The notes under the pieces are model-generated. The model searched no databases and was not told the origin of the DNA. It worked only from the letters and a program-made list of their open reading frames with translations. A stretch of 47,856 nucleotides of DNA from a virus. The stretch spans positions 1-47,856 of IMG/VR virus record IMGVR_UViG_3300037493_006469, one strand, 5' to 3'. Of the stretch, positions 4,578 to 23,540 are shown piece after piece. The translations under genes and the position numbers were made by a program. Each line of letters starts with the position of its first letter. Positions within the stretch are counted from its first letter, which is position 1.

Positions 4578-4615
4578 CATTGACTTCTCGCCCGTCGTCG
4601 CTATAATAGTATACA
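4571..4615 (+). promoter_or_regulatory. Sigma70-type promoter cassette, copy 1
   Basis: TTGACT (4580-4585), 16-base spacer, TATAAT (4602-4607). The surrounding 46 bases are nearly the same as 10391-10435, including the upstream gene's TAA stop, the spacer end GTCGTCGC and the GTATACAT after the -10. A 6-bp leader hairpin (GAGGCC 4622-4627 / GGCCTC 4636-4641) follows. It should drive the operon from 4661 through the polymerase region. Confidence 0.85.
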
Positions 4616-4660
4616 TCGGTTGAGGCCTCTACCAGGGCCTCCCAGCACAAGGAGACCAAC

Positions 4661-4842: not shown

Positions 4843-5208
4843 GTGGTCCCGCTCCTCTTTGGCCTCGGGATCATCGTCGACTTCCTCTGGACGAGGACGG
4901 TGTCGGCTGTAAGTCAGCGCCGGGGCCCCCCCGCAGTCGCCTACGCCATCGTCTTCAACGTCATCACCATGGGGTCGACCTGGATGGTGATCGAGGCGCG
5001 CACGGTCCCCGGCCTGCTCGCCTTCGCTGTCGGAGGGGGGCTGGGGACCGCCCTCGGGTTATGGAAAAGAAATTCTCCGGACTCGCCGCTCGACGGAGCG
5101 ACGGGACTAAGTCCGTCGTCTAAAGGCCAGGACACCGTCGTAGAGGAGGGCGCCCCCTCACAAGACGGAGACGCGGGTCCGAACCCCGCCGGCCGGAGGA
5201 TTTTATGA
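4843..5208 (+). CDS. Small membrane protein
   Basis: A 121-residue protein starting at GTG 4843, whose ribosome-binding site (AAGGAGGAG) lies in the last codons of the preceding gene. Three hydrophobic segments are visible (about residues 2-20, 31-50 and 54-73), consistent with an inner-membrane protein; the third ends with a Gly-rich GGGLGTALGLW turn. The last roughly 35 codons read through a tRNA-shaped sequence (5109-5196) and are low-complexity Gly/Pro/Asp, so that tail may be tolerated rather than functional. The stop overlaps the ATG of the GGQ gene. Function unknown. Confidence 0.6.
   Translation: MVPLLFGLGIIVDFLWTRTVSAVSQRRGPPAVAYAIVFNVITMGSTWMVIEARTVPGLLAFAVGGGLGTALGLWKRNSPDSPLDGATGLSPSSKGQDTVVEEGAPSQDGDAGPNPAGRRIL
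5109..5196 (+). ncRNA. tRNA-like structure in the leader of the GGQ gene
   Basis: The order and spacing of a tRNA are all present: two linker bases (5116-5117), D-stem GTCT/GGAC (5118-5121 / 5130-5133) with an 8-base loop containing GG, one base, anticodon stem CCGTC/GACGG (5135-5139 / 5164-5168), a 4-base variable loop, and T-stem GCGGG/CCCGC (5173-5177 / 5185-5189) with loop TCCGAAC. It resembles a tRNA-Glu body. Departures: the anticodon loop is 24 bases (5140-5163) with its own inner hairpin, the acceptor strands (5109-5115 / 5190-5196) pair at only four of seven positions, and no CCA follows. The 3' acceptor strand overlaps the ribosome-binding site GGAGG (5195-5199) of the next gene. 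It could be a decayed tRNA or a tRNA-mimicking regulatory leader. Confidence 0.45.
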
Positions 5209-5552
5209 CCAAGCAGATCCTCTTCTCGGTCACCAAGAAGGACCTCGATATCTCCTGGTACACCAGCCACGGGCCCGGGGGCCAGAAGAAGAACAAGACA
5301 CGGAACGCCTGCCGCATCATCCACCGCGCCTCGGGGGCCATGGTCACGGCCCAGGAGCGGCGGGAGCAGAAGGCCAACCTTTCCGCGGCCCTTCACCGGC
5401 TCCTCGAACACCCCAAGTTCAAGATCTGGTGGACGCGCCGCGTCTTCGAGATCGACGAGGGTGAGACGCTGGAGCAGAAGGTCGACCGCATGATGGCGGC
5501 GGAGCACCTGCGCGTCGAGGGCATCATCGACGGCGCCTGGAGGCCGATATGA
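5205..5552 (+). CDS. GGQ-domain peptide release factor-like protein (ArfB/RF-1 domain)
   Basis: A 115-residue protein that is essentially only the catalytic domain of class I release factors. GPGGQ (Gly-Gly-Gln at 25-27) is followed by the family's KT..A.R..H..SG..V..Q..R signature (residues 31-52). In release factors and in the rescue factor ArfB this loop enters the ribosomal peptidyl-transferase centre and hydrolyses peptidyl-tRNA. No stop-codon recognition domain is present, and no clear ArfB-type basic tail: the C-terminus is acidic then short, so ribosome entry may differ. ATG 5205 has GGAGG five bases upstream; the start overlaps the previous stop and the stop overlaps the next start (ATGA). 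The tRNA-like element directly ahead suggests tRNA-linked control. Confidence 0.85.
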   Translation: MTKQILFSVTKKDLDISWYTSHGPGGQKKNKTRNACRIIHRASGAMVTAQERREQKANLSAALHRLLEHPKFKIWWTRRVFEIDEGETLEQKVDRMMAAEHLRVEGIIDGAWRPI

Positions 5553-10397: not shown

Positions 10398-10435
10398 CAT
10401 TGACTTCGGCGGCGTCGTCGCTATAATTGTATACA
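10391..10435 (+). promoter_or_regulatory. Sigma70-type promoter cassette, copy 2
   Basis: TTGACT (10400-10405), 16-base spacer, TATAAT (10422-10427), embedded in the same 46-base block found at 4571-4615 with only about six differences. A CCGG/CCGG leader hairpin with the shared loop core CCTACCA follows, matching the CTCTACCA of copy 1. It should drive the genes from 10490 onward. Confidence 0.85.
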
Positions 10436-10489
10436 TAAGTCGAACACCGGTCCTACCAGGCCGGAGGCACACAAGTAGGAGATCGACCC

Positions 10490-10819
10490 ATTCGTCCTCG
10501 TTGTAACGGAACAGTTGCGGAGCGGCTTGCCGCGCACACCATTCGGTCTGTCTTCCGGAATGGTATGTACTGCCACGAGTGGATGGGTGCCCGTTGGGGC
10601 TCCCAGAATCGTGGCGGCGGGCGGTACGGCTGCATCAACATCGGCGGGCACACCGTCGCAGCCCACCGGGCAGCGTATGAGGCATACCGTGGTCCCATTC
10701 CTGCCGGCATGGTTGTCATGCACCAGTGCGACAATCCGCTCTGCGTGAACCCGCAACATCTTCGGATCGGTACGCAGGCGGACAACATGCAGGATGCCTC
10801 CCGCAAGGGACGCCTGTAA
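10490..10819 (+). CDS. HNH endonuclease (HNH_3 type) with apparent ATT start
   Basis: The HNH core is clear: YCHEWMGA near the front, a Gly-rich hairpin ending AHR (58-60 from the ATT), then MHQCDNPLCVNPQHL (77-91). Homology-like sequence (RCNGTVAERL) continues upstream of the first ATG (10565) and ends at ATT 10490, which sits eight bases after TAGGAG and behind promoter copy 2. No ATG, GTG or TTG is available there, so initiation at AUU, or a shorter 84-residue protein from 10565, must be assumed. The enzyme would nick or cut DNA as a mobile gene. It separates the promoter from the DNA-binding gene that follows. Confidence 0.7.
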   Translation: MRPRCNGTVAERLAAHTIRSVFRNGMYCHEWMGARWGSQNRGGGRYGCINIGGHTVAAHRAAYEAYRGPIPAGMVVMHQCDNPLCVNPQHLRIGTQADNMQDASRKGRL

Positions 10820-10842
10820 CCCAAGAGAGGAGCGCCGCACAC

Positions 10843-11160
10843 ATTCCTGACTTCAGCACCGAGTACCAGTCGTACTTCAAGGCCGACAATCTCAGGGCCG
10901 GCCCCCTCACCCTGACCATCAAGTCGGTCGGGGTCGAGAAGATCAGCCCGCAGTCCGACGACACGAGCCCCGTGCTCTGGGTCATCGAGGACAAGCGGGG
11001 GGTCGTTCTGAACAAGACGCGGTACGAGCAGATCGCCGAGATCTTCGGCTCGCCCGACACCGACAAGTGGATCGGCAACAAGGTCGTCGCCTTCCTTGAC
11101 CCCTCCGTCAAGTTCGGGGGCAAGAAGGTCGGCGGCATCGCTTTCAAACCGACTGCCTGA
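10843..11160 (+). CDS. Phage ssDNA-binding-like / conserved replication-associated protein
   Basis: About 105 residues. The pattern LTLTIKSVGVEKI ... LWVIEDKRGVVLNKTRYEQIAEIFGS ... WIGNKVVAFLDPSVKFGGKKVGGIAF matches a small beta-barrel phage family often found in replication and recombination modules; an OB-like nucleic-acid-binding role is inferred. The frame has no ATG/GTG/TTG near the start of the conserved sequence; ATT 10843 follows GAGGAG by about ten bases. Arrival of the HNH gene between promoter and this gene may have removed the original start. Start is uncertain; the family call is moderate. Confidence 0.55.
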   Translation: MPDFSTEYQSYFKADNLRAGPLTLTIKSVGVEKISPQSDDTSPVLWVIEDKRGVVLNKTRYEQIAEIFGSPDTDKWIGNKVVAFLDPSVKFGGKKVGGIAFKPTA

Positions 11161-11200
11161 GTCTCCTTTCTCCCTCTCCTTCTCCCTCATCTCTTTTCTG

Positions 11201-11234
11201 GGACGCCCGGCCCCTGCAACCGGGCGTCCTACTT
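11201..11234 (+). terminator. Intrinsic terminator
   Basis: A perfect 10-bp hairpin (11201-11210 / 11220-11229, GGACGCCCGG arms) with a 9-base loop, followed by TACTT. It ends the transcript of the DNA-binding gene, after a long pyrimidine tract (11161-11199), and directly precedes the tRNA-like array. Confidence 0.7.
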
Positions 11235-11236
11235 AT

Positions 11237-11330
11237 CAGGCCATCGTCTAACAATTGCGCGTCGAGATGCGTTAGGACTCCGGCTGAGATGCCGGCGATC
11301 CCCGTCTGAGAACTCGGGGTGGCCTGACCA
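11237..11330 (+). ncRNA. tRNA-like cloverleaf with encoded CCA and aberrant loops
   Basis: All stems of a tRNA pair perfectly and with correct joints: acceptor CAGGCCA/TGGCCTG (11237-11243 / 11320-11326), discriminator A and CCA (11327-11330), D-stem GTCT/GGAC (11246-11249 / 11275-11278), anticodon stem CCGGC/GCCGG (11280-11284 / 11291-11295), 4-base variable loop, T-stem CCCCG/CGGGG (11300-11304 / 11315-11319). All three loops are wrong for a working tRNA: the D-loop is 25 bases and lacks GG, the anticodon loop is 6 bases (TGAGAT), and the T-loop is 10 bases without the TTCRA core. If C-G 11284/11291 opens, GAG would be presented (Leu). It may be a tRNA decoy, a processing signal or a decayed tRNA. 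Confidence 0.55.
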
Positions 11331-11331
11331 T

Positions 11332-11381
11332 GCGGGACGGCGCTTAGTTGGGACCGATTCCCCTGGCGTCGTCCCGCACCA
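11332..11381 (+). ncRNA. CCA-ended tRNA minihelix-like hairpin
   Basis: One base after the preceding CCA, GCGGGAC (11332-11338) pairs with GTCCCGC (11371-11377), followed by A and CCA (11378-11381), the exact geometry of an acceptor stem. Pairing continues to 13 bp (11332-11344 / 11365-11377), close to the 12-bp acceptor plus T-stem stack of a tRNA. The loop contains a small 4-bp hairpin (GGGA/TCCC) and a D-loop-like CTTAGTTGG. There is no anticodon arm. It looks like a truncated tRNA or an acceptor-stem mimic. Confidence 0.45.
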
Positions 11382-11387
11382 ATTAAA

Positions 11388-11418
11388 GCGGCCCTCGACC
11401 GGGGAGGTCGAAGGCCGC
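11388..11418 (+). other. Long hairpin in the RNA array
   Basis: GCGGCC plus TCGACC (11388-11400) pair with GGTCGA plus GGCCGC (11406-11418) with one mismatch and a GGGGA loop. The bases after it read CA, so the string GCCA closes the hairpin much as CCA closes the two elements before. No T-run follows, so it is not an obvious terminator. Confidence 0.5.
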
Positions 11419-11552
11419 CAGTTGGCACGATCGCCGCCGCGGCTAACCCTCTACCAAAGGAATATGACCGCGGGGCTACGAGTGCCGCACACAAAGGAGA
11501 CCGCTGTTAGGCGGGTCCGTCGTCACTCTACCACAACACCCAAAGGAGTCAA
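11419..11552. other. Non-coding stretch between RNA array and the nucleotide/sugar operon
   Basis: Contains CCGCGG inverted copies at 11437-11442 and 11468-11473 and a wider GGCAC/GTGCC pair (11424-11428 / 11482-11486), so a further folded RNA is possible though not tRNA-shaped. CACACAAAGGAG (11488-11499) is a ribosome-binding-like motif with no start codon after it; a second copy, CACCCAAAGGAG (11537-11548), serves the gene at 11553. No clear promoter was seen here. Confidence 0.4.
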
Positions 11553-12137
11553 GTGCGCATCTACCTTTCGTACCCGATGACCAAGGCCAACGGTTCCGAT
11601 AAGGCCGTCGTCGAGGCGGTCCGCGCGGAGCTGCGGGCCCAGGGGGTCGACTTCTACGACCCAGCGAACATGGAGCCGGAGCACATGTCGATCCGGTTCC
11701 TCCAGAACTGGGACCTCGAGAAGATGTCCACCTGCGGCGCCCTCGTCGCGGTCTGGACCGAAAGCACGGCCGACAGCCTCGGCGTCAACGCGGAGATCGA
11801 GTGGGCGGCCCGCCTGTTCGAGATCCCCGTCTACATACTCCTGATCGACTCCGACAGCCGGCCGGCGGCGTGGCCCCTCGCGACCGCAGAGTCGAGCGGC
11901 GGGGGCATGTACGAGTCAATCACAACCATTCTTCAGGAGATCTACCGTGGCCTTAACGATCGATCCGGAAACCGCAGATCGGCTCGCGACATACCAGGCG
12001 GCTGTCATGCAGGGTCGCTTACCGGAGGCGCGTCCAACAACGCCAACGAGCGGAGGCGGCGTCAAGCACGACTGCGGCAAGCCACCGCTCGGGCTGCTGC
12101 CGTGGCGCGCTCTGGTCGAGGTCGCAGAGGTTCTTGA
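11553..12137 (+). CDS. Nucleoside 2-deoxyribosyltransferase-like protein
   Basis: GTG 11553 is preceded by AAAGGAG. The first 130 residues match the nucleoside 2-deoxyribosyltransferase / YspA-like fold: MRIYLSYPMT at the N-terminus, then FYDPANMEPEH, and GVNAEIEWAARLFEIPVY, where the Glu of an N-x-E motif is the usual nucleophile or substrate contact. Enzymes of this group exchange bases on deoxyribosides or cleave deoxynucleotides. The frame runs on for about 60 Arg/Ala-rich residues over the next gene, far more overlap than elsewhere in the operon, so the natural stop may have been lost. It heads a five-gene operon with nucleotide and sugar enzymes. Confidence 0.65.
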   Translation: MRIYLSYPMTKANGSDKAVVEAVRAELRAQGVDFYDPANMEPEHMSIRFLQNWDLEKMSTCGALVAVWTESTADSLGVNAEIEWAARLFEIPVYILLIDSDSRPAAWPLATAESSGGGMYESITTILQEIYRGLNDRSGNRRSARDIPGGCHAGSLTGGASNNANERRRRQARLRQATARAAAVARSGRGRRGS

Positions 12138-12420
12138 CCACGGGGCCAAGAAATACACGCGGCACAACTGGCGCGGGGGCTTCCAGTACTCCCGCCTCTA
12201 CGATGCCGCCCTCCGCCACCTGACCGCCTTCATCGAGGGCCAGGACAACGACGAGGAGACGGGGATCTCCCACCTCGCACACCTGTCCTGTTGCACGTTG
12301 TTCCTCCTGACCCAGGTGCTTGAGCAAAAGCCGGGGCTTGACGATCGGTACAAGCCGCCGTCGCCGCCCGACCATCCAACGATCTACGACATTCAGCGGC
12401 AGAAGAGGGACGAGACATGA
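11947..12420 (+). CDS. dATP/dGTP diphosphohydrolase-like (MazG-like) protein
   Basis: A 157-residue protein from GTG 11947 (GGAG seven bases upstream). Residues 40-120 follow the phage dATP/dGTP diphosphohydrolase N-terminal domain pattern: KHDCGKPPLGLLPW, LVEVAEVLDHGAKKY, NWRGG, YDAALRHL, then an acidic DNDEETG and HLAH (109-112). The Glu and His residues would bind metal and the dNTP phosphates. Such enzymes reshape dNTP pools, and relatives occur in phages with modified bases. The stop overlaps the formyltransferase start (ATGA). No PurZ-like gene is present here, so full 2-aminoadenine substitution is not supported. Confidence 0.7.
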   Translation: MALTIDPETADRLATYQAAVMQGRLPEARPTTPTSGGGVKHDCGKPPLGLLPWRALVEVAEVLDHGAKKYTRHNWRGGFQYSRLYDAALRHLTAFIEGQDNDEETGISHLAHLSCCTLFLLTQVLEQKPGLDDRYKPPSPPDHPTIYDIQRQKRDET

Positions 12421-13001
12421 AGGTCCTCCACCTCGGCCCCCAGGACGCCCACTACCAACTTATCGCGGCGCTCCCGGACGAGGACTTGGCCATGTGCCGG
12501 GACCCCCTTGATCCGCAGGACTCGCGTCTCGATGAGGCGGAGTTCATCGTCTCCTACCGCTACCGCCACCGCATCCCCAAGGCCGTGATCGACCGCTTCC
12601 ACTACCGCATCATCAACGTCCACTGCGGCCTCACCTGGGTCTGCCGCGGGGTGCGGCCCACCTTCTTCAGCCTCCTACACGACCTCCCGATGGGCGTCAC
12701 CATCCATGAGGTCGACGAGGGCTGGGACACGGGGCCCATTCTGAACTGGTGCGGGGACTTCCGCCCCTCCTGGAACGAAGACACGCTCGAGGGCGCCTGG
12801 CAAAACCACAACAACACGGCGCTGCGCTTCCTCGCGCGGCACTGGAACAGGCTCAGGCACGGCGAGTACCTGCCTTCTCCACTTCGTGGCCGCGCCGGCC
12901 CCCTCTTCACCATGTCCGATTTCGACAAGGTCTGGCCGCTCCTTCCCCGCGGCTGGAAGACTACCGTAGCAGAACTCAGAAAAATTGGAGAAACCCTATG
13001 A
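12417..13001 (+). CDS. Formyltransferase (sugar/tRNA N-formyltransferase family)
   Basis: A 194-residue one-domain formyl_trans_N protein. The catalytic set is visible: N67 and H69 in IINVHCG, then RPTFFSLLHDLPMGVTIHEVD, and D104 in DEGWDTGPIL. These enzymes move a formyl group from N10-formyl-tetrahydrofolate to an amine. It lacks the C-terminal domain that methionyl-tRNA formyltransferase uses to bind tRNA, and it lies in one operon with a sugar epimerase and a sugar aminotransferase, so an amino-sugar nucleotide is the more likely substrate. Both ends overlap neighbouring genes by ATGA. Confidence 0.8.
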   Translation: MKVLHLGPQDAHYQLIAALPDEDLAMCRDPLDPQDSRLDEAEFIVSYRYRHRIPKAVIDRFHYRIINVHCGLTWVCRGVRPTFFSLLHDLPMGVTIHEVDEGWDTGPILNWCGDFRPSWNEDTLEGAWQNHNNTALRFLARHWNRLRHGEYLPSPLRGRAGPLFTMSDFDKVWPLLPRGWKTTVAELRKIGETL

Positions 13002-13906
13002 GAGTTGCCGTTGTCGGCTCAGGGGGCTATGTCGGCGTCCCCTTGTGTCACGCTTTGGAAAGTCGCGGGGACAAGGTCCTCCGCATCGACGCCCGGGTGT
13101 ACGGGCAGCCGGTCCACCCCGACACGATCGTCGCCAACCATGGTTGGACGATCAGCGAGGCCATCCTGCGCCGCGGGGCCGACGCCGTAGTCTGGCTCGC
13201 CGCCTACGCCCACGACCCCGCGGGGCGGATCCACGTCGATGAGATGCGGCGGAACAACACCGAGCTGATCTACGACACCCTGGCGACCACGACCTTTCCG
13301 GTCATCGTCACCAGCTCCCTGTCGGTATTCGCCGGCAACCGCGGAGGGGCCTACCCCAGGAGCAAGAGGATGCTCGAGGAGAACCTGTCCTGGCGCAAGG
13401 ACTTCCCCGAGCGCATTTCGATCCTGCGGTTCGGGACGTTGTTCGGGGCGGCGCCTCCTTACGACATCCCGACCTACAGGAGCCATCTGCTTCTGAACAA
13501 CCTGGTCTTCGACGCCATGTCGGACGGCTTCGTTCGTTATCAGGTTGACCGGTCGCGCCCGGTCCTCCCCCTGGCCCTCGCCGTCGAGGCGATCATCGGG
13601 CGCCTGGACGGGGGGCCCCGCGGTGACATCACCAACCACTACCTGACCAGCGGCACGCTGGAGCAGTACGCGGTGGCGGTGCGCGAGGCCCTTCGAGCCC
13701 ACTACTGCTTCCCCGTGTTGATGAGGAACTACAGCGAGTACGTCGCCGACGACCGAGACTACGGGTGGGGCCCGTTCGACGAGGTCACCCTCCGCGGGTG
13801 GCTGCATCCGCTCATACATTGGACGCTGTCCAATCGTCGGCCCATCTCAGTCGAGCGGGAGAAGTTTCCGAAGAACCTGTACGACTACATCGAAAGGAGG
13901 AGGTAG
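12998..13906 (+). CDS. NAD-dependent epimerase/dehydratase (extended SDR), nucleotide-sugar type
   Basis: A 302-residue extended short-chain dehydrogenase. It opens with VAVVGSGGYVG (Rossmann GxxGxxG at 7-13), has an adenine-contact acidic residue (RIDARV), an active-site serine pair (VTSSLSVF, near 107) and the YxxxK pair Y119/K123 (AYPRSK). Family members epimerise, dehydrate or reduce nucleotide-activated sugars. The ATG overlaps the formyltransferase stop and has TTGGAG upstream. A frame open to 12749 upstream is not part of the protein. Paired with the aminotransferase next door, it likely makes the keto-sugar or final epimer of an amino sugar. Confidence 0.85.
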   Translation: MRVAVVGSGGYVGVPLCHALESRGDKVLRIDARVYGQPVHPDTIVANHGWTISEAILRRGADAVVWLAAYAHDPAGRIHVDEMRRNNTELIYDTLATTTFPVIVTSSLSVFAGNRGGAYPRSKRMLEENLSWRKDFPERISILRFGTLFGAAPPYDIPTYRSHLLLNNLVFDAMSDGFVRYQVDRSRPVLPLALAVEAIIGRLDGGPRGDITNHYLTSGTLEQYAVAVREALRAHYCFPVLMRNYSEYVADDRDYGWGPFDEVTLRGWLHPLIHWTLSNRRPISVEREKFPKNLYDYIERRR

Positions 13907-14835
13907 TGGAGCTGTTCCAAACGCCGCGCCTGACGGGCAAGTACCTGGACAAGGTCTTGTCCTCGGGGTGGTACACGTCGGGGCCCATGGGGCAGCGGCT
14001 GCGCGACAAGGTCGCCGCCTTCATCGGCATGGGCATCAGCCCCGACCGGGTGGTCCTGGCCTCCTCGGCTACGGCGGGCTTTCAGGCCGTCCTGGACGCT
14101 TGCCGCGCCCACGGGGCCAAGACCGTGTCCATCACCGACGCCACCTGGCCTGGGATGCACCAGGCGATCACGCACGCCGGCCTCGGACGGGCGGCCCCCG
14201 ACGGCTTCGCCGACATCGACGTTTTCACCGACATCGGCGGGGCCTCAGAGATCGATGAGCGGGATCACTTCCCGGAGCCCGTCAAGATCCATGACTGCTG
14301 TCACTCCTGGCTGCCGGCCCCCGGCCGGGACTTCTACCTCATGAGCTTCTATCCGACGAAGCTGGTCCCGGGGGCCGAGGGCGGCGTCGTCATCTGCCCG
14401 CGCAACGACATCGCCGAGGAGGTCGCCTACCGCCTGTACTGCGGGCTCGAACCCGGGGCCGCCGGCCAGGGTAAGGAGCCCCGCTTCCAGGGGCGCAAAG
14501 CCAATATGACGGACATCACCGCCGCCCTCAACCTGGAGGCGTTGGAGGTCGCGCCGTACTACATCAAGACGATCGGTGACTCGTGGCGGGGCCTCGCGGC
14601 CGAGGCCGATCGCCAGGGGGTCATCTACCGCGCGCATAACACCCGGCCTTACCTGTTCCAGGCCATGGTCGCACCCAAGGAAGTGTCCGCCATTCGGGAG
14701 AGCCTCAAGGAACGGGGCATCCCGTCCGCCTGGAACTTCCGGCCCGCGGGCCTCGTCACCCTTCCTTGTTACCCAGGAATGCTGCCCCACGAGATCAAGC
14801 AGGTGGTCGGGGCAGTGAGGGAGGTCCTTGAGTGA
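13906..14835 (+). CDS. DegT/DnrJ/EryC1/StrS-family sugar aminotransferase
   Basis: A 309-residue PLP enzyme from GTG 13906 (AAGGAGGAGG upstream). The start GKYLDKVLSSGWYTSGP is the family's usual opening, SSATAGFQA binds the cofactor phosphate, D130 and H133 (IHDCCHS) hold the pyridine ring, and K152 in SFYPTKLVPGAEGG forms the Schiff base. It would transfer an amino group from glutamate or glutamine to a nucleotide-linked keto-sugar. It is shorter than the common 360-400 residues. The stop overlaps the TTG of the HNH gene. Confidence 0.85.
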   Translation: MELFQTPRLTGKYLDKVLSSGWYTSGPMGQRLRDKVAAFIGMGISPDRVVLASSATAGFQAVLDACRAHGAKTVSITDATWPGMHQAITHAGLGRAAPDGFADIDVFTDIGGASEIDERDHFPEPVKIHDCCHSWLPAPGRDFYLMSFYPTKLVPGAEGGVVICPRNDIAEEVAYRLYCGLEPGAAGQGKEPRFQGRKANMTDITAALNLEALEVAPYYIKTIGDSWRGLAAEADRQGVIYRAHNTRPYLFQAMVAPKEVSAIRESLKERGIPSAWNFRPAGLVTLPCYPGMLPHEIKQVVGAVREVLE

Positions 14836-16049: not shown

Positions 16050-19000
16050 TTATTTCCTTGGCATAAGGATTTCGACGACCCGATCGCCGAACTGTTTGCG
16101 GACCTCCTTCGACTGTTGGTTTACCGTGCCTGTGATTTTTTCGAGCATTCTTTTCTGGTCGGTCAGTGGCTGCGTTTCCTTCTTCATGTGTTGAAGCAAG
16201 TACTTGAATCGCGGGTTCGCACCAGCCTGTGCCACCCGCTCCTCCAGGGTCTTCACGGCCGAGTCGACCTTCTCGGGGTCGTCGGCCCCCTTGAAGCCCA
16301 TGCTGTTGTCGCTCCAGGTCATCCGGTGGATGAACTCGAGGATGTGCCTGTCGGCCACGCCCTTGCGGTCGAGGTTGGTGACGATCGCGGCCTGCTGGTC
16401 GATCGGGAGGCGCCCGAAACTTTCGTGCGGGTCGTAGTCGGAGATCCGGTTGGCCATCTGCTGGGACTCGCGTTCGGTCAGGCCTGTGGTCACCTTGGCC
16501 GCGCCGAACTCCGACTCGGCGCGCTGGTGGACGAGCTTGACGAACTCCTCTTCGGCGCGCGCCTTGGCCGCCGGATCCTTGGCCTCCTGGATCATGCGGA
16601 AGTAGGCGCCGCGCAGCTCCTGGTATGGCGAGTACAGCGACTGGTCGGACGGCGTGTCTCCCGGGTTCCGGAAGAACCGCTGGGCCTCCTTGATCTCGTT
16701 GATGATGATGTCCTCGTCGTCCGCGACGTTCCGCTTCTGGTTCGGAGCCCGGGTGCCAAGGTAGTCGTCGATGTAGGAAACAGGGACGCCACGCGGGTCG
16801 GCGCCAGAGATGGTACGCAAGAGGGTCGAGGCCACGCCGGCCGGGGCTCGGAAGGGCCGCCCGGTCGCCGGGTTGATCGCTGCGGTCGCCTCGATGGCCT
16901 TCTCCACTCGCTCGACATCGCGGCCCACGACGTTGAAGGGCCCGGCGTGAATGTGCGGGAAGAGGGGCGACACGAAGTTCTGAGTGAGGGCCTTCATGTA
17001 CTGGCCCACCTTGGTCGGGAAATCTACGTCCTCGTCAACGATCCTCTCCCCGGTAACCTGGTCTCGACCGGCGACCAAGGTGCCAAGGTTGAAGAGGGGG
17101 TTGTTCAGGTAGAACTGGCCGGCGTACCCCACCGCTCCGGCCAGGATCTCCTGGCCCAGGCCTCGCTTCTCCGGCGGCATCAACATGTCGGTGCCGACCC
17201 CCACCGCGCCGCGGGCCGTCGTGATGTCGGCGGCGGGCAGCCAGTTCCCGGTGTTGATATCCATGGCCAGGTTGTTGTCCCCGTCCAGCGACATCAAGTG
17301 CGTCATGAAGTACTTGACGGTCTCGCCCCATCCGCGGGCCCCCCGTGCGTGGACCATTGCCTCGAGCCTGTCCCAGTTCGTCCCGCTCAAGGTCATGGAC
17401 GAGAAGTTGAGAGCGCTGACGGCCCCGAGAGTACCGATGGTGCGCGCCGGGTAGTGCGTCAGGAAGTTCTTTCCGAGCCGCGTCAGCTCTGCCGGGAATG
17501 ACGTGATGAGCGACAGCATCGGGTTGCTCGAACGCAAGGACTGGGGGACCCGGCTGTAGTCTTGCATGAACGTCTTGACGCGCCAGATCGCCTCGGACTT
17601 GGGCATCCCCGAGTCGAGCATGTTCTTGTAAGCCGCGAGCTTGAAGTGCTCGTCGATCTGGTTGTAGAACTTCTTCGCCATGTCCATGACGCCGTTGTTC
17701 GGGATGCCCAGCTTGTTGGCGCCGTCGAGCCAGAAGCCGCCGATGAACCGACCCATGCGCTTGGCGAGGCCGGCGTTCAGCGTGTCCATCGCCGCCTGGA
17801 TGGAGGCCAGCTCCTTCTGGAGTTCCTGCGTGTTGACGGCGGCCGAGGTCTTGCCCTCGGAGGCAAGCTGGCTCTTGCGCAGGACCGCCTCACGCTTCTT
17901 GAAGAGATCCTTCAGGGCGATCCCGTCCTTCGTCCCGAACCCAACCATATCCTGCCAGGCGCGCCGGATGTACTGGTTGTTCTTGTCGAAGAAGGTGCCG
18001 GTCAGGACGCCATTGTTGACCGCGTCGACGTAGAGCGGGTCGTGAGCAATCTTGTTGTTGAGCGGAGACGTCTCCTTGATTGCCCACCAAAGGTTCTTCA
18101 CATTGTTCAGGTTGTAGACCCCGAACTGCCCCATGTGATCGAGGATGACGTTGAACATGAAGTTGCCGACCCAGGTCCGGGGCGACTGGATGATCTGCGT
18201 CATCTTCGCGACCTTGGACATTGTGTCGAAAACAACGTTGCCCGCGTTTGCCACCTTGTTCACGATCTCGTCGGGGACCGGATAGTTGGCGTGGCTGAAG
18301 CTCTCCTGGAGCCCGGCCATAAACCCCTTGAGGCCCTCGTGCGTCTTCACCATATTGTTCATCTCGGCGAAGACGCGCTTGTGAACCCACTTGCCGGAGA
18401 TGGACCCGAAGTGAGCCTGGTCGGTGGGAACCCGCACGAACTGGGACGCCGCCTGGAGGCCGCTCTTGCCCTTCAGCGTCAGGGCGTTCCGGGCCTCGTC
18501 GGTGAGGACCATGCCGCCGTAGAGGTCAAGGGCCTGGACGTAGGAGTGCATCATGACGTCCCGCCACATCTGCTGGAGGCGCTCGATCCGCTTCAGGGGG
18601 ACCGCCTCGGAGCCGAGGTAGTCCAGGTTCCGGAGGCCCTCCTTCCCGAGCGGGGCCGCCACCGAGATGTTGTCGCGGTACTGGGTCTTGCCGCGGAAGA
18701 TCCCGTCCTTCTCCACGAGCCCGTCGATGATCGCCTGGCCGTAGTTCTGGCGGATAAAGCGGTGGGCCTCGACGACGCTCGGGAAGTACTCGTCGACGAT
18801 CGCGTCGGGCTCGTCAACCCGCACGCGGTACTGGGTCGCGTCCCTCTCCATCTTGAACTCGGAAAGATCGGTGAGCTGCGGCGGCGACTCCATGCCGCGG
18901 CCGGCGCCGCCCTTCTTGCCGAGGCCGCGCACGACGTCGTCGCGGACCAGGCCCGGGCGCTCGTGAACGCCGTAGGACTTGGGCGCGTACCCGAGCTTCT

Positions 19001-22000
19001 TGAACTCGCGGAGGGTCTTGTTGTCGAGCATTCCGGCCCGATCGAGGGCGCGGAAGACCGAGTCGAACATGCCCTTCTCTCGGGTCCAGAAGTCGTCGAG
19101 CCGGCTCATGATCGTTTTCAGGCTGCCGTCCAGGGACCGCCCGTAGAAAGCGCGGTCGAGGAGCGGGTACTTCTCGACGAGCTTGGAGGGCAGCACGCCC
19201 GCCTTCTGGGAGCGGGCCAGGAGCTGCCGCTCGGCCGGGGTCATCTGGCTGTGAATCTTGGCCAGGTCCTCGAGCTGACCGGTGACCGCGTTGAGCCGGG
19301 CGGTCACCCCAACCGACATGTCGTGCAGGATCGAGGCCTTCTTCAGGAAGGGGAGGGCCTCGACCATGAAGGGGTTGCCGCGCATTCCGACGACGGATCC
19401 GGCCTTGAGGTTTTCCTGGTAGGCCTTCGCGCGGGCGACGATCTCGTCCGGGGTCTCGATGCCACGGTGCCGGAGCTTAGGCCCCAGCTCCTTACGAACC
19501 GCGTCGGCGTTGAGGCTGTAGGTCGGGGCCGGGTTCTCGGCCCGGTCCAGCCCGGCCACCGCGGCGCGCCTCTCGGCTTTCAGGGACTTGATCTCGGCCT
19601 CAGCGTCGTAGAAGGCCGTCGACTTGCGTGCGCCGGTCTTGATTCCCTGGCCAGCCTGTTGGTAGAGGTCGGCCGCCGCCGCCTCTTCCTGGTCCAGCAT
19701 CTTGGTGTTCAGCGCCCCGTTCCGGGCGTCCGCGTGGTGCGGGAGGTCGCGGGTCACACGCTCGGCGAAGGTGGCCGGCATGACCTCGCGGGCGTGCTGG
19801 ACCGACTCATCCATGCGCCGAAGGATGTCGCCCAGCTTCTGGCCCTCGCCCTTGAACCGGATCCCTTCCAGGACCGACAGGTACTCGGGGTTGAGGTTGG
19901 CCTTCAGGAGGTCGATGTTCTCGTCGGTCGCCGGCTTGTCCAGCATCTCGCTGACCCGCCGGAGCCGCAGGTTCCGCAGCTTCGCGTCCTTCGCCGCCTG
20001 GCCGAGGCCCTTGGTCGTTGCGTCCGAGTCCAGCGGGCTCGTCCGGGCCTCTTCCCTGCGGTTTACGGCCGCACGGATCCGCTGGTCAACGGCGGCCAGT
20101 TCGGCTTTCCGTGTCTCCACCAGCACCGAGTTCGGCAGATCCCTGTGCTCGAAGGCGATCGTCTCCGGCGTCAACCCATCGAACATCGGCTGGTTGTGCT
20201 CGACCACGGAGCGGAGAAGATCGGGGTTCTCCCGATAGGCCTCCAGGACCGCGGGGGCCGCCTGCTCGGTCCATGGTTTCGTGGCGTCGTGGCCGCGCAA
20301 CCTGGAGCGGTACTTCTGGGTCTGGGTCAGCTTTTCGGTGTAGTCCCGAATGGTCGCGTCCAGCTCGTCGCGCTGCCGCACCTTGAGATCCAGGAGGGCG
20401 CGCTGGGTCGCGGTCGGCTCCGGCCCGAAGGCAACCATGTCGGCGTCGATCGACGCCTGGGCTCCGGCCCGAGCCGGCTTGAGGCGGCTTTCCAGCCTGT
20501 CGCGGTAGATGTACTCCGCCGTGCTGGCAATGACGTCGTTCCGCGCCATGACCGGGCGCCATTCCTTCTGCGCCTGTGCGGCCCCGACGGCGTACTGGTG
20601 GGCGGCGTCGACCATTTTCTCGGCGCCACGGACCACGCGCTCGAACAGCTCCGGATGACGCACTCCCGTCAGCTTCAAGAAGGCGCGGGCCCAGATCGAG
20701 CTGCCCGGGGGAGGCAGATGGTCAGAGGCATTGAGGGCCGCGACCAGTGTGCGGTTCTGCTCGGGCATCAGGTCCAGCATCTCGCGCATCGTCGGGTCGC
20801 GCCCGTTCTTCGTCTTGAACTCGGCGACCCCCTTCTGGTAGCTGTCGTCGCGCATCCCGGTAAGGACGTCGTCGGTGTCCGGTCCGACGAAGAGCCCCGT
20901 GTCCGACCGCATCATTCTGTCAATCGATTGGCCGGTCTCGTCCAGGATCCGTCGCGAGGACAGGAAGTCGAACCACTTCCCTGGACGCTGGATCAGCTTG
21001 CCCCAGGCCTGGTCGACATGGTGGAAGAAGTTCCCGATCGTCGACTCGGAGCCGACCTTGTACGCGATGCTCTCCGCTGACTCGTCAAGCCGCCCAGAGA
21101 TGTTACCCCAGATCTTCCGGACGGTGGCCCCCAGCTCGCGCGCCTTCGCGGGCACGAACCTGTTCGCCTTCTGGTCCTCGAGGACGTGGTCGATCGCGGC
21201 CCCGGCGGCCTCGAGCTTGCGCAGGGTCACCTCCGGGCGAGCCGGATCGTACCGAAGGATCTCGTCGCTGATCGCCTTGCGGTACGGGGTCAGGTGCTCG
21301 GGGGCGTACTTCGCCATCTCGACGAGCTTCCGCTGCAACCCGTATCCCTGGAGCATCCGATCCACGAGCTGCGTCTTGGCGGCGCCGAGCCCGCTGACGC
21401 TGCGGCCCAGCATGTCGAACCCGATCATGTAGGCGATCCCCTGGCGAGGGTCGTCGACCAGGGCGGCGGCCACGTCGACCACCGGAAGGAGCATCTGCCC
21501 GACGAGGGACTTCGAGGTGGCCGAGATGGTGCCCAGCCAGTCCCGGGGGGCCTTGCCGTCGAGTTGCGCCGACAGGTACCCCTGCCGGTCCGACTCCTCT
21601 TTCACCGCTTGCCCGAAGGCGTTCCGCAGCAAGAAGTCCCCGGCGTGCGCCTCCATGTCGAAGGCCGCCCGGACGCGCTCGGGGCTCGCCCCTTCCATCC
21701 CGACCAGGTCGTGGAGGAGGCTCTTGTCCGTGATGGACGGAAGCGGGCCGTCTCCCGTCTTGGGCGTGTAGGCCTCGAGGGCCGTCCCCTTCGCCAGCTC
21801 GGTCGCGTCCAGCACACGCCGCCTCTCGATCGGGTCCTTGGTGATCCCGTACTGCTTCAGGGCGTCGGCCAGCCGCGCCCCGACGACCTTGAACCCGTCG
21901 GCCAGGGTGAGCCCCTGGAACACGGTCGCCATCATGTGCGAGGGGCCCTTCGTCGTCTCGGCCAGGATGGCGTTGCCGGTCCAGGCGTAGGTACCGGTCT

Positions 22001-23540
22001 TGGCCCAGTCGTTGACGCCCGGGACCTTTTGTAGGCCGGCGTCGACGGCGGTGGTGCCGCGCTGGAGCACTTTTCCGATCTCGTGCTGGGCATTCAGAAA
22101 CGCGGCCCCAAAGAGATTGCCCGGGGTCATCTGCGTCTTCATGTACGGGGTCAGCTCGTCGAACGACAACTCGTGGTCGTCGATCGTGCGCCGCAGAGAG
22201 GCCACCGACGTGTAGTACCGCAGGGCGGTCAGGTAGTTGCCGTCGGCGACCTGCTTCTGGATCTCCCGGGTCTTCTCCGCGCCGTAGACCGCCCAGGTCT
22301 TGTAGGCGTCCTTCTCCCACTCCGTCTGGATCTGCTTGGTGAGGGCCGACTGCTGGTTCGCGGCCGCCTCGTCGAGTAGGGTCTTCAGGGAGTCGGTCGG
22401 GATCATGTCGACGAAGGAGATCCCGCTGAACTGTCCCGGGATCGGGGCCCCATCCGGCGTGGTGCGCCATCCTGCGCGGTTCAGGTTGTACTCGAGCCGC
22501 CCGTTGTCGTAGGCGTCGATCATGGACTGCTTCCAGCCCTGCCCGAGGAAGGCCGCGACGGTCGCCGCCTGGCGGCCGACGTCCGCGTGCGTCGGGTCGA
22601 GCAGGCGCTGGGCCGGGAGCTGGCTCAGACTCCGGACCTCGTTCGGGTGCAGGCTGCCGCCGCCACCGAGCAGGACGTCCGCCATGTTGCGGCGGTACTC
22701 TTTGCCCGCGTTCTCCTCCCAGGTGTTCTGGGCCACGCGGTCCTCGGCGTTGATCTGGTGCGCCAGCCCGAGCCGCATGACGTTCCGCCACTCGTCGTCC
22801 GTCCACTGGGTCGTCTTGTTGTAGAGCTGCTGCATCCGGTCGGCGTTCTCCTTGACCGTGATGCTGACCGCCGCGTCCCCCGCCAGGGCCCCCTGGAGTT
22901 CCATCTGGATCGCCGTCATCTTCGCCTTGAGGTGCTCCCGCCCGATCCGACCGGAGAGCTGGGTGGCCTCCGCCTCGGTGACCGGGGCGTGCCGTAGGAG
23001 GGTGGCGAGCTGGAGCCCCGCCCGTACCTTGTTCACCGCCTCGGGGTTGGCGCTGATCTTGTCGATCCCCAGGGCCTGCATGGCCATGGTGGTCGCCTTG
23101 TCCGCCTCCACCAGGATGGCGGTGGCCTGGCCCGGGCGCCGGATCGCGTCGTAGGCGTCGACCCCGGCCTTCTGCAACCGGGCCGCCGCCTCCCCGAGGG
23201 TGGCCGCATCGCCGGCCCCGGGGGCCTCGAACAGCGGCTTCACCGCGTCCATGAGCCCGCCCATGGCCTCGTTGCCCTGGGCCTGGAGGGCGTTCAGGTG
23301 CTCGATCCGCCCGAGGATGGGGGGCGGGACCTCGCCCTTAGGTGTCGCGCTGGGGGCCGGGTTGTTCTTAACGATCTCGTCTAAGAGCACCGGGTCGTTC
23401 GCATAGTCTGGCAGGGATGCCTTCGGCACAGGCGGAGGAGGGGCCGCGTCCGGCGCAGGGTTGTTCTTAACGATCTCGTCCAAGAACGCGGGGTCGTTGG
23501 CGTAGTCCGGGAGAGCGGGCGGGGCGACAGGATCGGCCAT
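16050..23540 (-). CDS. Giant internal virion / DNA-ejection-type protein (2496 residues)
   Basis: By far the largest gene, covering nearly 16% of the genome. The N-terminus has two copies of a short motif (LPDYANDP, then LDEIVKNNPAP) about 40 residues apart, joined by Pro/Ala linkers. Most of the rest is helical with many charged stretches; one apolar segment lies around residues 2025-2055 (MLSLITSFPAELTRLGKNF onward). No lysozyme, transglycosylase, RNA polymerase or protease motif was found by eye. Size, position after the tail genes and composition fit the very large internal or ejected proteins of podoviruses. Antisense frames here are long but only mirror its GC-rich codons. Confidence 0.7.
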   Translation of the reverse strand: MADPVAPPALPDYANDPAFLDEIVKNNPAPDAAPPPPVPKASLPDYANDPVLLDEIVKNNPAPSATPKGEVPPPILGRIEHLNALQAQGNEAMGGLMDAVKPLFEAPGAGDAATLGEAAARLQKAGVDAYDAIRRPGQATAILVEADKATTMAMQALGIDKISANPEAVNKVRAGLQLATLLRHAPVTEAEATQLSGRIGREHLKAKMTAIQMELQGALAGDAAVSITVKENADRMQQLYNKTTQWTDDEWRNVMRLGLAHQINAEDRVAQNTWEENAGKEYRRNMADVLLGGGGSLHPNEVRSLSQLPAQRLLDPTHADVGRQAATVAAFLGQGWKQSMIDAYDNGRLEYNLNRAGWRTTPDGAPIPGQFSGISFVDMIPTDSLKTLLDEAAANQQSALTKQIQTEWEKDAYKTWAVYGAEKTREIQKQVADGNYLTALRYYTSVASLRRTIDDHELSFDELTPYMKTQMTPGNLFGAAFLNAQHEIGKVLQRGTTAVDAGLQKVPGVNDWAKTGTYAWTGNAILAETTKGPSHMMATVFQGLTLADGFKVVGARLADALKQYGITKDPIERRRVLDATELAKGTALEAYTPKTGDGPLPSITDKSLLHDLVGMEGASPERVRAAFDMEAHAGDFLLRNAFGQAVKEESDRQGYLSAQLDGKAPRDWLGTISATSKSLVGQMLLPVVDVAAALVDDPRQGIAYMIGFDMLGRSVSGLGAAKTQLVDRMLQGYGLQRKLVEMAKYAPEHLTPYRKAISDEILRYDPARPEVTLRKLEAAGAAIDHVLEDQKANRFVPAKARELGATVRKIWGNISGRLDESAESIAYKVGSESTIGNFFHHVDQAWGKLIQRPGKWFDFLSSRRILDETGQSIDRMMRSDTGLFVGPDTDDVLTGMRDDSYQKGVAEFKTKNGRDPTMREMLDLMPEQNRTLVAALNASDHLPPPGSSIWARAFLKLTGVRHPELFERVVRGAEKMVDAAHQYAVGAAQAQKEWRPVMARNDVIASTAEYIYRDRLESRLKPARAGAQASIDADMVAFGPEPTATQRALLDLKVRQRDELDATIRDYTEKLTQTQKYRSRLRGHDATKPWTEQAAPAVLEAYRENPDLLRSVVEHNQPMFDGLTPETIAFEHRDLPNSVLVETRKAELAAVDQRIRAAVNRREEARTSPLDSDATTKGLGQAAKDAKLRNLRLRRVSEMLDKPATDENIDLLKANLNPEYLSVLEGIRFKGEGQKLGDILRRMDESVQHAREVMPATFAERVTRDLPHHADARNGALNTKMLDQEEAAAADLYQQAGQGIKTGARKSTAFYDAEAEIKSLKAERRAAVAGLDRAENPAPTYSLNADAVRKELGPKLRHRGIETPDEIVARAKAYQENLKAGSVVGMRGNPFMVEALPFLKKASILHDMSVGVTARLNAVTGQLEDLAKIHSQMTPAERQLLARSQKAGVLPSKLVEKYPLLDRAFYGRSLDGSLKTIMSRLDDFWTREKGMFDSVFRALDRAGMLDNKTLREFKKLGYAPKSYGVHERPGLVRDDVVRGLGKKGGAGRGMESPPQLTDLSEFKMERDATQYRVRVDEPDAIVDEYFPSVVEAHRFIRQNYGQAIIDGLVEKDGIFRGKTQYRDNISVAAPLGKEGLRNLDYLGSEAVPLKRIERLQQMWRDVMMHSYVQALDLYGGMVLTDEARNALTLKGKSGLQAASQFVRVPTDQAHFGSISGKWVHKRVFAEMNNMVKTHEGLKGFMAGLQESFSHANYPVPDEIVNKVANAGNVVFDTMSKVAKMTQIIQSPRTWVGNFMFNVILDHMGQFGVYNLNNVKNLWWAIKETSPLNNKIAHDPLYVDAVNNGVLTGTFFDKNNQYIRRAWQDMVGFGTKDGIALKDLFKKREAVLRKSQLASEGKTSAAVNTQELQKELASIQAAMDTLNAGLAKRMGRFIGGFWLDGANKLGIPNNGVMDMAKKFYNQIDEHFKLAAYKNMLDSGMPKSEAIWRVKTFMQDYSRVPQSLRSSNPMLSLITSFPAELTRLGKNFLTHYPARTIGTLGAVSALNFSSMTLSGTNWDRLEAMVHARGARGWGETVKYFMTHLMSLDGDNNLAMDINTGNWLPAADITTARGAVGVGTDMLMPPEKRGLGQEILAGAVGYAGQFYLNNPLFNLGTLVAGRDQVTGERIVDEDVDFPTKVGQYMKALTQNFVSPLFPHIHAGPFNVVGRDVERVEKAIEATAAINPATGRPFRAPAGVASTLLRTISGADPRGVPVSYIDDYLGTRAPNQKRNVADDEDIIINEIKEAQRFFRNPGDTPSDQSLYSPYQELRGAYFRMIQEAKDPAAKARAEEEFVKLVHQRAESEFGAAKVTTGLTERESQQMANRISDYDPHESFGRLPIDQQAAIVTNLDRKGVADRHILEFIHRMTWSDNSMGFKGADDPEKVDSAVKTLEERVAQAGANPRFKYLLQHMKKETQPLTDQKRMLEKITGTVNQQSKEVRKQFGDRVVEILMPRK

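Follow-up and report, generated by a model that had tools for sequence, protein, structure and literature searches.

A CCA-ended cloverleaf of tRNA-Glu ancestry and an adjoining hairpin in the early region of a phage

Results

The window, by which we mean the whole 47,856-base stretch that was analysed (IMGVR_UViG_3300037493_006469), codes for a tyrosine integrase, an A-family DNA polymerase, TerL and a portal protein. Among named relatives of this phage the nearest is Podoviridae sp. ctKR88, whose portal and TerL proteins are about 30% identical to those of the window. ARAGORN found no intact tRNA gene in the whole window. Elsewhere the window encodes an RF-1-domain protein (5205-5552) with an intact GPGGQ motif, either an ArfB-like ribosome rescue factor or a release factor, with similar proteins in cluster C mycobacteriophages and in Tunturiibacter phage Tunturi_3. 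It also holds a small sugar-modification set of formyltransferase-, epimerase- and DegT-aminotransferase-like proteins (12417-14835) and, on the minus strand, one open frame of 2,496 amino acids (16050-23540).

The RNA locus occupies a 392-nt noncoding gap (11161-11552) in the plus-strand early region and is flanked by genes on the same strand. Immediately upstream is a small protein gene (10840-11160, plus strand; phrog_21613, E=6e-10), whose frame is open from 10726, so that its start is uncertain. Just upstream of the elements there is also an HNH homing-type endonuclease gene (10565-10819, plus strand; Pfam HNH_3, E=3e-15), and such genes are frequent in phage tRNA clusters. The gene after the gap begins at 11553 and has its own AAAGGAG site at the start. 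The nearest promoter upstream of the elements is a sigma-70-type sequence with exact hexamers, TTGACT-16-TATAAT (10400-10427, plus strand). The same hexamers and 16-base spacing recur at 4580-4607 (plus strand), and none of 100 shuffles contained as many matches as these two on the plus strand. Each promoter leader (4580-4660 and 10400-10480) carries a hairpin with UACCAG in its loop, the stems differing between the copies, and downstream of the hairpins lies CACAAGGAG or CACACAAGUAGGAG.

Within the gap we found, in order, a C/T-rich tract with several UCUC motifs by direct reading (11161-11200), a perfect 10-bp hairpin by fold analysis (11201-11229), two elements described below, and a strong GC-rich hairpin (11388-11418) that is terminator-like on the minus strand only, all given on the plus strand. 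Element 1 (11237-11330, plus strand) is a 94-nt cloverleaf. Its acceptor stem has 7 bp (11237-11243/11320-11326), its D stem 4 bp, one of them G-U (11246-11249/11275-11278), its anticodon stem 5 bp (11280-11284/11291-11295) and its T stem 5 bp (11300-11304/11315-11319), and the encoded ACCA end consists of A73 and CCA at 11327-11330. The D-loop is expanded to 25 nt (11250-11274), the anticodon loop is the 6-nt UGAGAU (11285-11290) and the T-loop is the 10-nt UCUGAGAACU (11305-11314). The earlier note, made from the letters of this stretch, had given the coordinates of the locus, the loop sizes and the ACCA end correctly, and its fully paired stems include one G-U. Element 1 thus has the four paired cloverleaf stems and the 3′ CCA of a functional tRNA, but it lacks a readable anticodon set in a 7-nt loop with U33, and it lacks both of the elbow motifs, TTCRA in the T-loop and GG in the D-loop. 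With the D stem enforced, the cloverleaf folds at −37.1 kcal/mol, 1.3 above the minimum-energy fold at −38.4 kcal/mol, in which the D stem is replaced by other pairings. Pairing probabilities were 0.17 for the D stem, 0.99 for the anticodon stem and about 1.0 for the acceptor stem.

Element 2 (11332-11381, plus strand) begins one base past the end of element 1. It is a minihelix-like hairpin with no anticodon arm, made of a 12-bp stem including one G-U (11332-11343/11366-11377), a 22-nt apical region and an ACCA end, and it folds with z = −5.0. The 50-base hairpin of the earlier note was right in size, position and ACCA end. A thirteenth pair, U11331-A11378, consumes the discriminator A, so the 13-bp stem that the note had combined with the ACCA tail can only be an alternative to it. 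With its 12-bp acceptor/T-like stack and ACCA, it has the shape of a minimal RNase P substrate. No significant tRNA ancestry was found for element 2 itself (9 of 60 shuffles matched equally well). A search of the rest of the window for complements of the 3′ ends of the elements, as a primer-binding idea would have it, gave at best one match with 3 mismatches.

A 7-bp stem with CCA is common, with 56 in the window, so the evidence lies not in the tail but in the entire cloverleaf together with the tandem ACCA hairpin. A relaxed cloverleaf scanner (D-loop 5-30, anticodon loop 6-9, T-loop 6-12, at most 2 G-U) run on both strands of the window returned element 1 as its sole match and had no match in 200 dinucleotide-shuffled windows; as its limits were picked after element 1 had been seen, the resulting P value is approximate. 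In 457 kb of other DNA the scanner's only find was one genuine tRNA-Gly. A 12-bp hairpin with an ACCA end occurred once in the same 457 kb, and for this reason its tandem placement at one-base spacing is not an expected coincidence. ARAGORN did not call element 1 as a tRNA; lowered thresholds gave hundreds of noise calls, which were discarded. Rfam had no match at element 1, RF00005 being absent there even at E 10.

The sequence comparisons indicate that element 1 is a descendant of a bacterial tRNA-Glu. It has the tRNA-Glu D arm and anticodon stem, ATCGTCTA...TTAGGACnCCGGC. The 20 bases of its D and anticodon stems, scanned as a signature with normal D-loop spacing, matched more than 116 bacterial genomes; among the 116 matches listed, 113 were tRNA-Glu and 3 were not called as tRNA. 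Over 30 non-loop core positions, element 1 is identical to Myxococcota tRNA-Glu(UUC) at 29, while the best other isotype, tRNA-Gln, reaches 23 and all the rest at most 22. The Myxococcota match gives a hint, no more, of the host lineage. A covariance model built from element 1 alone aligned tRNA-Glu(UUC) end to end at 35 bits, with an E-value that is not independent, as the tRNA-Glu loci scored had been fetched with the signature.

In the alignment to tRNA-Glu, U8, A14 and GUUA are retained and the D-loop GUG is replaced by about 20 nt. The anticodon loop is one base short and the Glu anticodon is gone, and the T-loop aligns to UUCGAGU with two substitutions and a 3-nt insertion. Nor is the G1-C72 acceptor pair kept: element 1 has C-G where 82 of 82 tRNA-Glu have G-C or G-U. 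Element 1 has thus lost its anticodon, T-loop motif and D-loop GG as well as the G1-C72 pair, and cannot work as an ordinary tRNA-Glu.

The 12 pairs of the acceptor and T stems differ from those of the nearest tRNA-Glu by 14 substitutions; both sides have changed in 7 pairs and none is broken, nor is any of the 21 pairs of element 1 as a whole. Random substitution left all 12 pairs intact in 20 of 2,000,000 trials (about 1e-5). Furthermore, pairs 1-72, 3-70 and 52-62 have states that are absent from the 82 tRNA-Glu. Since these states lie outside natural tRNA-Glu, the pairing was probably maintained after the departure from Glu identity. Read against its ancestor, element 1 is probably not a product of simple random decay, which supports the earlier claim that conserved stems with changed loops are the opposite of such decay. 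The compensatory changes could still precede the loop changes, or stem from recombination with another tRNA. With a single element 1 sequence, they are judged against tRNA-Glu and not by covariation within the element's own family.

A DNA-level comparison with 50,697 phage records gave no relative of the phage, the matches in plasmids were chance fragments only, and protein-guided scans of IMG/VR gave no relative with the early region. Portal searches gave four distant relatives and one close one (IMGVR_UViG_3300049914_000169; 92% portal identity), a fragmentary record from which the RNA locus region is absent. A portal scan of genome contigs returned no prophage. When IMG/VR was scanned by pattern for the architecture of the locus, no homologue of element 1 was found; two records that were returned, L040 and L157, have no cloverleaf and were rejected as chance matches, that in L157 lying inside a 361-aa frame. 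A scan with the 16-base anticodon arm gave 32 matches, the sole cloverleaf among them being one ordinary tRNA-Gly (L020), and 379 Myxococcota genomes gave no match in a covariance search at E 1e-6. The homologues that the earlier note had proposed to look for were thus absent from the IMG/VR patterns, the phage DNA collection and these genomes, which leaves no covariation within element 1.

Discussion

Our best explanation, put forward tentatively, is that the two elements are putative translation-incompetent, CCA-ended RNAs, and that they are perhaps decoys for a host factor acting on tRNA acceptor ends. Elements 1 and 2 would be transcribed together with the flanking early genes, possibly under the 10400 promoter, and host tRNA-processing enzymes would excise both RNAs; element 2, with its minimal RNase P substrate form, could set the 3′ end of element 1. 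Both would then pile up as stable RNAs that the ribosome would not use in translation, and may tie up a host factor with specificity for the acceptor stem and CCA, such as a defence enzyme that cleaves tRNA 3′ ends or modifies them. We prefer a factor directed at the acceptor end because what the ribosome and GluRS need (anticodon, elbow, G1-C72) has been lost and the acceptor-end features have been kept; element 2, an acceptor-like stack with no anticodon arm, goes further in the same direction. Nothing in the results requires a decoy role, and the position of the D stem outside the minimum-energy fold counts against this explanation.

The earlier note had offered several decoy or mimic readings, among which acceptor mimicry is compatible with the retained features. 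A decoy for host anticodon nucleases is unlikely: it requires an intact target anticodon loop, and element 1 has lost the Glu anticodon and one base of the loop, while element 2 lacks an anticodon arm altogether. RloC favours tRNA-Glu but cleaves the anticodon loop (PMC2610378), which makes such a decoy a poor fit, because the loop that RloC cuts is not preserved in element 1. Charging by GluRS is also unlikely with the G1-C72 pair and the anticodon gone. An example of an enzyme working at the other end of the molecule is the immune nuclease Cas12a3, which engages the acceptor stem, T-arm and CCA and cuts tRNA tails; it still cleaves after stepwise removal of the tRNA loops, binding the minimal substrate with lower affinity (PMC12851939).

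A serious if somewhat unlikely competitor is that the elements are two decaying tRNA genes, remnants of a phage tRNA cluster with stems still intact. The clear tRNA-Glu ancestry of element 1, its missing canonical loop motifs and the absence of any intact tRNA gene from the phage would all fit, as would a T-loop that two substitutions and a 3-nt insertion account for, and an HNH endonuclease gene adjoins, as in other phage tRNA clusters (segB in T4; an HNH gene in LinStu). However, decay by random substitution does not readily give 7 doubly changed pairs with 0 of 21 broken, pairs 1-72, 3-70 and 52-62 have left the range of natural tRNA-Glu, and the encoded CCA is intact twice in tandem. A second serious competitor, though an unlikely one, is that the locus is instead a cis-acting element of the early transcript, with tRNA-like folds serving as processing punctuation (for RNase P or another tRNA-end enzyme) or as stability barriers before the gene at 11553. 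Four strong structures in a row in the 392-nt noncoding gap of a same-strand gene array, the minimal RNase P substrate form of element 2 and the AAAGGAG of the downstream start speak for it; but punctuation would be expected to retain the T-loop/D-loop elbow used by tRNA-processing enzymes, and a tRNA-Glu core would be superfluous.

The remaining explanations are harder to reconcile with the locus. A trans-acting RNA whose anticodon-arm loop, (U)GAGA(U), kisses the host tRNA-Glu loop UCUCA, or UUUCA with one G-U, is highly improbable, even though UGAGA is the exact complement of positions 33-37 of tRNA-Glu(CUC). GAGA is present in each of the three loops (chance 0.4 to 1.5%, for a motif picked after the fact), but the GAG of the T-loop is inherited from tRNA-Glu, so that the triple recurrence is overstated and we rejected it as a designed feature. 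Moreover, inversion of the loop between the palindromic arms CCGGC and GCCGG yields the same complement in fewer events, and titration of tRNA-Glu would harm the phage too. We give very little weight to an odd working tRNA, with U33-GAG-A37 reading the Leu codons CUC/CUU, or to an RNA that accepts an amino acid for some purpose other than translation. Covariance alignment and reading by eye allow U33 and A37 to be matched to tRNA-Glu, with GAG between them, and the CCA is encoded and the stems intact; against this stand the 6-nt anticodon loop, the missing T-loop motif and D-loop GG, the lack of a long variable arm for LeuRS and the loss of G1-C72 for GluRS. Least credible of all is a DNA-level feature, an attachment site or replication origin, that merely resembles a tRNA. 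The phage does have a tyrosine integrase, and many phages with such integrases integrate in tRNA genes; yet the integrase gene (1147-2250) is 9 kb off, the longest run in common with host tRNA-Glu is about 14 nt and in the 5′ half, the 3′ half, where attP usually lies, is divergent, and there is no GC-skew switch at the locus.

Returning to acceptor-end decoys, we regard as doubtful the proposal that a captured host tRNA-Glu has become a putative anti-defence RNA pair, cloverleaf plus minihelix, that presents only acceptor and CCA and saturates a tail-cutting or tail-modifying immune enzyme. We know of no description of a counter-defence RNA class that presents the acceptor/CCA end alone. If the elements do act on enzymes that attack tRNA tails, they would counter, by means of RNA, a branch of bacterial immunity that was described recently (Cas12a3, PMC12851939) and would offer an approach to the long-open question of the role of T4 rnaC and rnaD. 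As element 1 is invisible to standard tRNA finders and to Rfam, phages may also hold more tRNA-derived noncoding RNAs than are annotated.

Comparison with known systems

With bacterial tRNA-Glu, element 1 has in common the D stem, the anticodon stem, U8, A14, A21, the start of the variable region and CCA, with 29 of 30 core positions; it differs in three rewritten loops, in acceptor and T stems altered by compensatory pairs, and in the inverted G1-C72. Bacterial Y RNAs (YrlA) are noncoding RNAs with a tRNA-like domain, and element 1 resembles them as a noncoding RNA with a tRNA-like fold. No Ro60/TROVE protein was found among the window genes scanned with Pfam, and the Rfam YrlA model had no match. 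Separately, a Polyangium fumosum sequence (L188, 900-6800) carries an array of about 28 tRNA genes, several of them low-scoring or non-canonical, surrounding an ORF that, read by eye, resembles a Ro60/TROVE protein.

The closest known case is the rnaC/rnaD pair of phage T4, the species 1 and 2 stable RNAs. T4 encodes these two small RNAs in its tRNA region, and their role is unknown (PMC3014915). They resemble the present locus in being small RNAs separated by gaps of a few bases (in T4, from phage tRNA genes) with a homing endonuclease gene adjoining (segB in T4, HNH here). Both T4 RNAs look tRNA-derived by sequence: rnaC includes a T arm of canonical tRNA form (CCGGGTTCGAATCCCGG), and rnaD together with the next base ends in GCACCA (T4 region 1909-2172 in L212). 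Whereas rnaC keeps the T-loop TTCGAAT, the T-loop of element 1 has changed. The T4 RNAs measure 139 and 119 nt, belong to a cluster with eight tRNAs and are stable transcripts by annotation; the present locus has no intact tRNA gene nearby, and has instead the complete stems of a tRNA-Glu cloverleaf with changed loops. Phage tRNAs with changed anticodon loops evade host anticodon nucleases and are considered still to work as tRNAs (van den Berg 2023, PMC10264068). Element 1 is like them in being phage-encoded and tRNA-derived with an altered anticodon loop, and unlike them in having lost its decoding features. Placed beside these systems, element 1 is best described as a predicted tRNA-derived phage RNA that lacks the defining features of a functional tRNA.
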